From Candidatus Krumholzibacteriota bacterium (GTDB lineage: Bacteria; Krumholzibacteriota; Krumholzibacteriia; JAJRXK01): a stretch of 64,000 nucleotides of DNA. The stretch lies in assembly GCA_029262065.1 (NCBI GenBank), contig JAJDAC010000015.1:1-64000 (forward strand), read 5' to 3'. Below, one piece after another: positions 45,714-53,630 of this stretch. The first letter of the stretch is position 1. Every line of letters begins with the position of its first letter. The position numbers and the translations under genes are program-made. The notes under the pieces were generated by a model. The model saw only the letters and a list, made by a program, of their open reading frames with translations. It was not told where the DNA came from and searched no databases.

Positions 45714-47042
45714 TCACCAGGTATCTGGTGAACCGTCCGGCACTATCAGATGGGCGTTGGCTGCGGCTTCCACCGCCGGCAGATCCGCCAGGTCCGAAGC
45801 CCTGAGGAACCAACCGTCCGGCCCATCTTCACTCTGATGACACGCCAGGTAGCAGTCCTGTCCGTCATCTACTTCGGTTCTCGCCGTCCATCTACGAATG
45901 TTGTGCGGCGAGGCGTACTTCCACGTGGGCTCGTCTTCGAACCCGCTAAGGTCGGTCAGACCCCACGAGGCGTAGGTATCGGTGGCCACGGGTACGTGGC
46001 GCAGTAGCACATAATCCTGGTCACGAAGGTCGGGGATCGGGTTCTTGCCGATCTTGAACGATGCATACGAGGCCTCGCTCAGGCCTTCGCCGGTATGACA
46101 GCCGTTGCAACTCTTGTAGGTCTGGCTGTGACATACCTGACAGCTCATGTCCTCGATATGCGCATCGTGATACGTGTTGGCCGCGACCGCGTCGGCGTGG
46201 CAATCCAGGCACGCCGGCATGGCCTCTACCTCGTAGCGGTAGGTCGGTCGGCTGCCGTCCCCGTGCATTTCGTCACCGGTGTGACAATCCATGCAATCCA
46301 TGGCCAGGGGGCGATAGTGGACATCGGCGCCGGCGTACTCGTTGGCGCCACGGTACTCGTCGCCGATGCGACTCCCGTGGCACGCCGTGCAGTTGCGGGT
46401 CATGTCCGGTCGCTTGTTGATGCGGTGTGCACTGACCAGACCGCCACCCACGTTCTTGGGCGAACTGATGTGGCAGTCTCCACAACTGGCGTGGCACGAC
46501 GAGCAATCGGATTCGAATCCGGCCAGAAGTTCGGGGTGCTCGTCGAACTCCAAACCCGATCGGGTTTCGATCATCCGAATGTAACCGGCTTGCGTGGTGT
46601 GGGCCGCACGTACGTACGAGGGTCCGTCGGCGTGGCAGTAGTCGGTGCAGGTGTTGTTGAACCCCTCACTGGGGTCCGCGCGCATGCCCGTATGAGCCTC
46701 ATCCTTGGATAGGATCCCCTCTTCGCCACCGTGACATCCAATGCAGCCTCGTTCGGCGTGCAAGCTGGCCAGGAAATCCTCGCCGTCCGCGCCGCCGATG
46801 AACACCTTGACCCATCCCTCCACCGGAGGGACAGAGCCACCTCAGCCTTCACCTTCGTCTTCGGGGAGTTCCGGATCCGGCACGACGGTCGCCTGCAACA
46901 TGGCACCATCGGTATGGCACCCCTCGCAAGTCGACTTGTCCAACACCGGAGCTTGCATATCCACTGGATCGTCTGAGCATCCAACGAGCAGGATCGTGAG
47001 AAGAACGAGGATGAAACCCCAGATGAGAATTCGATTCGACAT
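45714..47042 (-). CDS. Multihaem cytochrome c lipoprotein, selenoprotein (Sec67)
   Basis: Read through the TGA at 46844-46842, this is a 442-residue lipoprotein (lipobox LVGCSDD) with nine CxxCH motifs (first CEGCH before the TGA, then CIGCH onward) and two CxxxCH motifs (CTDYCH, CYLACH). The TGA lies in EDEGEG-U-GGSVPP, a Gly/Glu-rich linker, so the gene either encodes Sec or ends as a 66-residue lipoprotein followed by a headless cytochrome; no ribosome site precedes the second part. A SECIS-like hairpin begins 12 nt downstream. ATG 47042 has GGAGG 7 nt upstream. It probably moves electrons at the cell surface. TetR lies upstream, rhodanese downstream. Confidence 0.8.
46816..46830 (-). promoter_or_regulatory. 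SECIS-like hairpin of the cytochrome gene
   Basis: On the minus strand CCCTCC-GGT-GGAGGG forms a perfect 6-bp stem with a GGU loop. The loop starts 18 nt after the TGA. Geometry and loop match the other three elements in the window. Confidence 0.75.
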
Positions 47043-51344: not shown

Positions 51345-51962
51345 CTATTCGCCTTCTGGCTTGTACCCCGCGTTCTTCATGCGCCGGCCCGACTCCTGGT
51401 AGTCGGCGGCCGGCATGTCCTGAACTCCGGCGGCGCCGACCCATTTGTTGTAGAAGTTGAACAGCGCGCAGACCGTAATGGCATCGTAGAGCGCTTCGTC
51501 GCTCCAGCCCAACGACCGTAGTTGGTCGAGTTCGCTCTTTTCGATCGACGGACTGTCGGTATTGATGCGTTCGATAAAGTCGAACAAGAATTTGTCAGCA
51601 TCTGAAATGGGTGCATTGCGATGATCATCGAGTACCGCGTCGACCAAGGCGCGGTCTTCCAGGAGTTCCGCCGCGACCGCGGCGTGACTACCCACTCAAA
51701 AACGGCACTCGTTCTTGCGGGATGTGAATGCGGCAATGAGCTCGCGTTGTCCGGCCGACAATGGCGACTCACCCCGCATGACCCCATCGGTAAAGCGGGT
51801 CAGGTGCTGGGTACGATCAAACCTATAGGCCAATAGGTGCAGTATCTGAGGAACATTCTGCGCTTCTTCGCGCATGCGCTGGATGCGATCGTGGTAGGGA
51901 CTATCCCCCTCCGCACCTTCCACGCCGGGCAAGAACATGGGATCCATGGAGTTCGCTGACAT
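51345..51962 (-). CDS. AhpD-like (carboxymuconolactone decarboxylase family) selenoprotein (Sec89)
   Basis: Read through the TGA at 51698-51696, this is a 205-residue AhpD-type protein. The TGA falls in the active site RKNECRF-U-VGSHAAVA, where relatives read NxCxYCxxxH, so the motif becomes CxxU with Cys86 and Sec89 and the proton-relay His kept. The downstream half (ELLEDRALVDAVL, a second helical part) is in the same frame and family-like. GGAGGGCCAC precedes the ATG. A SECIS-like hairpin with a GGUC loop begins 12 nt downstream. It should reduce peroxides or act as a disulfide reductase in the cytosol. Confidence 0.85.
51669..51684 (-). promoter_or_regulatory. SECIS-like hairpin of the AhpD-like gene
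   Basis: On the minus strand CGCCGC-GGTC-GCGGCG is a perfect 6-bp GC stem with a GGUC tetraloop, close to classical bacterial SECIS loops. The loop starts 18 nt after the TGA. Confidence 0.8.
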
Positions 51963-52078
51963 GTGGCCCTCCTTTGCCCCGAGTCTAGCGGTCCATGGGC
52001 TGAATGCCAGGCGTTTCTAACAAGTCACCGGTGCCCGCCTCGCGCAATGGCACGAGGCGGGCGTTGGATTCCAACCCG

Positions 52079-53587
52079 TCAGCCTACCGGCCGCGTGCTC
52101 CGCAGAAATGCGAAGCGTTGGGAGGTTTCGCCTTCCACGGTCAGACGAACGCCCTCGTCGAGGTTGGCCTTCGACAACCGTTTTCGAAAGTCCTGAACGT
52201 CGGTGACCTTGGTTTCGCCAATGGCCACAATCAGGTCGTTCACACGCAGCCCGGCCCGTGCGGCGGCGCCGATCGGATCCACCTGGGTGACGAGCACGCC
52301 TTCCTCCACGCCGTCTCTCCCCAGGCGTTGCGCGAGGTCCGGAGTCAGAGTTCGAACCGACATGCCCAGAGCCAGCGCCGGTTTGTCGGTGCCCTCGACA
52401 CTGGCGAGGTTGCTTTCGAGCTCGCCCAATTGCACTTGAAGTAGTTTGTCCGACCCATCCCGAAACACTTCTACGTCGACCTTCGAACCGGGCTTGGTCG
52501 CGGCAACCTGGGATCGGAAGCGTTCGATCGACGCGACTTCCTTGCCGTCGAATCGCGCCACGATGTCGCCGGCCCGCAAGCCCGCGTCGTCAGCCGGACT
52601 TGTAGGTGAGACGTCACCGATCAAGACCCCTCCCTTGCCCTCGTAACCGAAGGAACGCGCGAGACCCGGCTCGAGTCTTTGAATATTCACTCCCAGCCAG
52701 CCGCGCGCAACGCGGCCGTCTTCGATCAGGCTGGTCATGATTGAGCGAGCCATGTTGATGGGAATGGCGAAACCGATTCCCATGTAGCCGCCGGATCGGG
52801 AGAAAATGGCCGTGTTGATGCCGACCACCGCTCCGTCCAGATTGACCAGCGGGCCCCCACTGTTGCCAGGATTGATGGCCGCATCGGTTTGGATGAAGTC
52901 TTCGTAGTCGGCAATCCCCACGTTGGCGCGGCCCGTTGCACTCACGATGCCCGCCGTCATGGAAGACGCTAGCCCGAACGGATTGCCGGCCGCGACGACC
53001 CATTCACCCACGTGTAGCTGGTCTGAATCGCCGAGCTTGGCCGGCACGAGTTCATCGGCCTCGACCCGCAGAACCGCCAGGTCGGTGTGCGGATCGGTCC
53101 CCACGACCTCGGCAGTGAGGGTCCGTTCGTCGAGAAGTCGAACCGTGACCTCGTCGGCGTCCTCGACCACATGGTTGTTGGTGAGGATGTAGCCGTCTTC
53201 GAGGATGACCCCCGAGCCCTGGCCGCGTTGTACGAAGTCGCGGCCACGGTCGGGCGGAACCAGACGGAAGCGCTCGAAGAAGTTGCCTCCGAAGAATTCG
53301 TGGAACGGCTGCATCGACGGCCCACGGACAACTGAGTTGGAACCGCGCCGAGCCGAGGTGATGTTTACGACTGATGGCTTGACCCGTTCGGCCGCCGAGG
53401 CGAATGCCTTCGAAAGTGCGTGAGCAGTGACAACCGCGTCGCTTTGGGCTTCGTCGCGGGCGACATCGGTCGTAGCTGCGTCCTGCGCAACCGCACACGA
53501 GTGAGGTCCTTCGAACACCGCGAACGCCGCGAACAGCGCCAGCACCGCCGCGGTGCCACCCAGCCATTTGAGTTTGGTGCCTGACAT
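52079..53587 (-). CDS. htrA: DegP/HtrA-type periplasmic serine protease
   Basis: The 502-residue product has a signal peptide (~1-34). The trypsin-like domain has the His (LTNNHVVEDADE), Asp (PHTDLAVLRV) and Ser (NPGNSGGPL) of the catalytic triad. Two PDZ domains follow (~295-385; GWLGVNIQRL and ~400-490; GMSVRTLTPDLAQRL). ATG 53587 has GGAGG upstream; an in-frame TTG two codons earlier is less likely. It degrades and refolds misfolded envelope proteins. The neighbouring Hsp20 gene suggests a heat or envelope stress context. Confidence 0.92.
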   Translation of the reverse strand: MSGTKLKWLGGTAAVLALFAAFAVFEGPHSCAVAQDAATTDVARDEAQSDAVVTAHALSKAFASAAERVKPSVVNITSARRGSNSVVRGPSMQPFHEFFGGNFFERFRLVPPDRGRDFVQRGQGSGVILEDGYILTNNHVVEDADEVTVRLLDERTLTAEVVGTDPHTDLAVLRVEADELVPAKLGDSDQLHVGEWVVAAGNPFGLASSMTAGIVSATGRANVGIADYEDFIQTDAAINPGNSGGPLVNLDGAVVGINTAIFSRSGGYMGIGFAIPINMARSIMTSLIEDGRVARGWLGVNIQRLEPGLARSFGYEGKGGVLIGDVSPTSPADDAGLRAGDIVARFDGKEVASIERFRSQVAATKPGSKVDVEVFRDGSDKLLQVQLGELESNLASVEGTDKPALALGMSVRTLTPDLAQRLGRDGVEEGVLVTQVDPIGAAARAGLRVNDLIVAIGETKVTDVQDFRKRLSKANLDEGVRLTVEGETSQRFAFLRSTRPVG

Positions 53588-53630
53588 TTTCAATCCTCCT
53601 CTGTTTCAGTTTCACACGAGCGGAGGCGTA

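Follow-up and report, generated by a model that had tools for sequence, protein, structure and literature searches.

AhpD-like selenoproteins with a CxxU active site were first reported in a 2005 study of the Sargasso Sea, which found 27 of them, and the 2008 GOS study counted 299 'AhpD-like 1' (COG2128) and 70 'AhpD-like 2' proteins. The family is listed in reviews of 2022 and 2026 (PMC9312934, PMC13188914), the later of which gives it as TIGR01926 with a CxxU motif. The bSECIS model for the accompanying hairpin has a small loop with an early G, an N1/N2 loop pair, an upper stem of 4-16 bp, a spacing of 16-37 nt and an MFE of -7.5 kcal/mol or below (PMC13188914). The AhpD relay is formed by Glu118/Cys130/His132/Cys133/His137 in the M. 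tuberculosis protein and by Glu36/Cys48/Tyr50/Cys51/His55 in PA0269, the peroxidase activity of which is weak in vitro (PMC3141380).

We examined a gene in the first 64,000 nucleotides of contig JAJDAC010000015.1 from a Candidatus Krumholzibacteriota bacterium (GCA_029262065.1); this whole stretch is referred to as the window. The gene has in common with the TIGR01926/COG2128 selenoproteins (GOS 'AhpD-like 1') the family, the CxxU site and a bacterial SECIS right after the UGA and, judged from the family descriptions, differs only in its taxonomic setting and sequence subgroup. Since such proteins have been on record since 2005, it adds a member to a known family; in the literature, which we covered incompletely, no description of the subgroup in Acidobacteriota or Myxococcota was found. 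Taken together, the sequence, its conservation and the decoding machinery argue strongly (probability of about 0.95) for a stand-alone AhpD-like selenoenzyme gene, whose UGA would be decoded as Sec89 via SelB and the hairpin.

The reading frame and its UGA codon

The original prediction had located an AhpD-like selenoprotein at positions 51345 to 51962; these coordinates are right, and the strand, which had been left unstated, is the minus strand (Table 1). With TGA read as Sec, minus-strand positions 51962-51345 form one frame of 205 residues up to the terminal stop, and its only internal TGA is at 51698-51696. The AAGGAGG ahead of the ATG gives the frame a good ribosome-binding site. The predicted product, MSANSMDP...TSRKNECRF[U]VGSHAAVAAELL...KPEGE, contains the peptide NECRF[U]VGSH that had been singled out beforehand. 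A plus-strand reading of the same interval was ruled out by in-frame stops other than TGA.

Table 1. Positions of the selenoprotein gene, its elements and its upstream neighbour in the window.
Feature	Position	Strand	Remarks
AhpD-like (TIGR01926 / CMD PF02627) selenoprotein gene	51345..51962	-	ATG 51962-51960, UAG 51347-51345; 205 aa; Sec is residue 89
In-frame UGA, predicted selenocysteine U89	51696..51698	-	Aligns with the second, reactive Cys of CxxC
C86 codon, first Cys of the CxxU site	51705..51707	-	Cys in 79/79 UGA-bearing rows
Shine-Dalgarno-like AAGGAGG	51968..51974	-	5 nt upstream of the ATG; sequence reading
Bacterial SECIS upper stem-loop, CGCCGC-GGUC-GCGGCG	51669..51684	-	Loop starts 17 nt past the UGA
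Upstream neighbour, trypsin-like/PDZ (DegP/HtrA-type) protease	52079..53593	-	116 bases from the selenoprotein gene; neighbourhood not conserved among relatives

GTDB genomes were scanned for two peptide patterns that lie apart from the Sec residue (FNFYN[KR]W and [AR][NT][SY]M[DE]PMF), and the best 80 loci, together with the window gene and a sequence from a plasmid of Gemmatirosa kalamazoonensis, made up a comparison set of 82. TGA stands at exactly the Sec codon of the window gene in 79 of these, mainly from Acidobacteriota, Myxococcota and Gemmatimonadota, and TGC in the other three. Two of the three Cys homologues (L063 and L084) are close copies in one Bryobacteraceae MAG (HOG28), the genome of which contains selB, and have TPFC in place of CxxU, with Thr at the position of C86 and Cys at that of Sec. 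Distant homologues from the window's own class (about 27-34% identity) whose alignment covers the Sec column have UGA at seven loci, Cys at two, Gly (GGA) at one and Ala (GCA) at one. The reactive residue appears to have been lost in the last two (L023 and L024), the codon of L023 being one base from TGA. Of the 79 UGA-bearing sequences, 77 have Phe directly ahead of the UGA, and 61 of these encode it by TTT; across the aligned region, TTT and TTC are used about equally, and the bias may reflect an influence of codon context on UGA decoding.

These comparisons bear on two other explanations of the UGA. The codon could stem from a mistake in sequencing or assembly, or the gene could be decaying and carry a real nonsense mutation; a search of 79 further genomes of the phylum gave no close orthologue (1 of 80 carries the gene), which might favour this view. 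However, the same codon is UGA in sequences from several phyla, including that on the Gemmatirosa plasmid, and both the reading frame past the UGA and the synonymous sites of the hairpin are conserved. An error at 51696-51698, which the original prediction had named as one way in which it might fail, cannot be upheld, given that UGA occupies this codon in dozens of independent genomes, and we regard the error or decay explanation as extremely improbable. Alternatively, the locus could consist of two genes, the first coding for a short N-terminal protein that stops at the UGA and the second being a downstream ORF (51695-51345) with a GTG start; gene callers that apply table 11 would produce this annotation. 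Such a split would cut through the active-site motif, whereas the two halves together align to intact proteins as a single domain, and the presence of a SECIS after the UGA and of the Sec machinery in the genome further reduces the chance of two genes to almost nil.

The hairpin after the UGA and the decoding machinery

The two strands of the window together contain 1,623 TGA trinucleotides, and that of U89 alone has a perfect 6-bp stem closed by a GGTC loop 14-23 nt downstream; no other 6-bp GGTC hairpin occurs in the 128,000 strand-bases. It agrees with the bSECIS model in every constraint (GGUC loop, 6 bp, 17 nt and about -20 kcal/mol). Compared to shuffled sequences, its fold energy is unremarkable (z = -1.27), as the surrounding DNA is rich in GC; the case for the hairpin is made by its position and its conservation, not by its stability. 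A search of the whole window with Rfam at the gathering threshold, and with a lax threshold around the site, gave no SECIS match, which is uninformative since bacterial SECIS elements are short and variable.

In the 79 UGA rows, the Ala codons within the stem are GCC in 93% at +5, GCG in 94% at +8 and GCG in 96% at +9, all at four-fold degenerate sites; over the aligned region of the same rows, the most frequent Ala codon accounts for 54%. The third positions of the stem are nearly frozen, and to differing bases for one amino acid. The pair closing the loop, formed by two synonymous third positions (n = 79), is G-C in 52 rows, A-U in 21, G-U in four, C-U in two and A-C in none, so that the N1/N2 pair covaries between G-C and A-U across the homologues (Fisher p = 3e-15, which is not a true probability because the sequences are related). 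The mutual information of this pair, 0.66, is the highest of all adjacent third positions (next 0.33; median 0.08, about nine-fold lower). Parsimony gave at least seven G-C/A-U changes on a quick tree with many weak branches, and limiting the test to independent pairs on well-supported branches left too few pairs for significance. Compensatory changes were also found in the stem: three rows have T-A in place of C-G, and one row (L050) has a rewritten stem. The GGUC-type hairpin is lost in all three Cys homologues. The uniqueness in the window, the agreement with the model and the loop-pair covariation uphold the bacterial SECIS with a GGUC loop that was originally proposed.

The source assembly (59 contigs, 95.6% complete) encodes selB (354 bits), selA (468) and selD (336), all above the curated cut-offs, as well as a tRNA-Sec with the anticodon TCA, also above its curated cut-off; the Sec machinery, whose absence had been named as a ground for rejecting the prediction, is therefore present. 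The selD gene itself has a TGA, in AAG[U]AAKL, where SelD usually has its Sec. In the 12 other gene-carrying genomes or records tested, Cys forms included, selB was always present. The Gemmatirosa kalamazoonensis plasmid 2 (NZ_CP007130.1, 1.04 Mb) carries the UGA-containing orthologue (L028; 52% identical), whose SECIS stem-loop is the same as in the window, together with a selB that exceeds the family cut-off (457157-458221), and Sec-decoding genes thus occur on a plasmid. In the proposed mechanism, SelB on the mRNA hairpin would bring Sec-tRNA(Sec) to the UGA, and ribosomes would insert selenocysteine at residue 89 and go on to the UAG.

The active site and the predicted reaction

The protein scores above the cut-offs of NCBIfam TIGR01926 "peroxidase-related enzyme" (112.3 bits, cut-off 81.8), Pfam CMD PF02627 (31.5 bits, cut-off 23) and the AhpD core domain TIGR00778 (31.3 bits, cut-off 27.8), and has solved relatives in 2pfx, 2prr, 3c1l, 6k40 and 2oyo. 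An AlphaFold2 model based on 20 homologues is all-helical (mean pLDDT 94), and its top PDB matches in Foldseek were the peroxidase-related AhpD-like structures 3c1l, 2pfx, 6k40 and 2prr, followed at lower ranks by PA0269 (E near 1e-3) and then the debrominase Bmp8. The TIGR01926 and PF02627 scores and the structure matches bear out the initial description of the protein as AhpD-like. The four top-ranking proteins contain Cys and resemble the window protein in fold, in the positions of the E/C/x/C/H relay and in length, but differ in having Cys at the reactive position where the window protein has Sec, with 23-28% identity over the fold. The M. tuberculosis AhpD (1gu9/1knc) has the same active-site helical hairpin and Glu-12-Cys-3-Cys-4-His spacing, whereas its whole-chain match to the model is weak (TM 0.38-0.40) and the window gene has no adjoining ahpC. 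The AhpD_rel_CFYUT (NF041238) selenoproteins and those of a distant AhpD homologue (NF041047) are likewise of the AhpD type with CxxU; the window protein belongs to neither, as it scored 42.9 bits against NF041238 (cut-off 175) and gave no match to NF041047.

Alignment to AhpD relatives places the Sec codon at the second position of CxxC (C86-R-F-U89), with U89 aligned to the Cys of the homologues, as had been suggested from the match of NECRF-U-VGSH to the AhpD CxxC site. The relay residues E74-(12)-C86-(3)-U89-(4)-H93 have the spacing of PA0269 and of the M. tuberculosis AhpD, and none of the 79 UGA-bearing rows departs from E, C or H at these positions. The place of His132/Tyr50 is taken by F88; 2GMY likewise has Phe there. 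In an all-helical fold, U89 would stand in for the Cys that is reactive in the CxxC site of AhpD, with C86 acting as the resolving thiol and a proton relay that includes E74 and H93. By homology, the U89 selenolate would most likely reduce a peroxide or disulfide substrate, and the selenenylsulfide formed between U89 and C86 would then be recycled by a dithiol reductant.

The predicted catalytic role is thus a Sec-dependent reduction of a hydroperoxide or disulfide. The CMD/AhpD fold is also used for disulfide exchange and for reductive dehalogenation, as in Bmp8, so the gene might encode a Sec enzyme that is no peroxidase but carries out another Sec-dependent reduction. The Bmp8 structures 6ohi and 6ohj are among the Foldseek matches, TIGR01926 is named merely 'peroxidase-related', and the peroxidase activity of PA0269 is weak. 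However, the AhpD relay residues are conserved and the nearest structures belong to the peroxidase-related subgroup rather than to Bmp8, and we consider a different reduction possible, though rather unlikely.

Distribution, gene neighbourhood and other UGA codons of the window

The absence of close orthologues from the 79 other genomes of the phylum that were searched makes the gene patchy there and its gain by transfer plausible. On the tree, the window sequence lies near Gemmatimonadota and MAGs labelled Deltaproteobacteria, with modest support. A mis-binned contig was also considered, and is argued against by two other genes of the contig that have adjacent homologues (57-59% identity) in a genome of the same class (G009 C26). 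A search of viral contigs gave no relatives of the window gene. The tree has two changes between Sec and Cys, both within Acidobacteriota. We tentatively suggest that the sequences could form an almost obligate Sec subgroup of TIGR01926 that is widespread among Acidobacteriota, Myxococcota and Gemmatimonadota of soil. Sec would be ancestral to it and Cys the result of rare secondary losses; such a subgroup may have its own substrate and would probably be split or truncated in many annotations. For the source genome, an in-frame UGA can be a true Sec codon and should be annotated as such. The 79 UGA sequences, with SECIS covariation at synonymous sites, could serve to test or train SECIS predictors, and the cultured carriers Myxococcus, Corallococcus and Gemmatirosa open the way to biochemistry.

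Conserved gene neighbours were sought in about 80 loci, which gave only within-genus synteny and widespread families, with none that points to a substrate or partner; part of one large neighbour cluster consisted of shadow ORFs opposite the selenoprotein gene itself. In the window, the gene beyond the HtrA-type protease encodes Hsp20, pointing at most to a stress-related setting.

About 44 kb from the AhpD-like gene, a minus-strand frame at 7474-6655 encodes an AhpC/TSA (peroxiredoxin-like) protein with a UGA at 7063-7061 in RGVW[U]PHC (UxxC); a hairpin with a GGT loop lies 21 nt past this UGA. Peroxiredoxin-like proteins with UxxC are a known selenoprotein family, and this frame very likely encodes another selenoprotein. 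At 46844 on the minus strand, a TGA is followed by an 11-bp GGT-loop hairpin just ahead of a 375-codon cytochrome c7-like frame starting at 46823; this hairpin is probably due to chance, or regulatory at the start of the gene, rather than connected with Sec.
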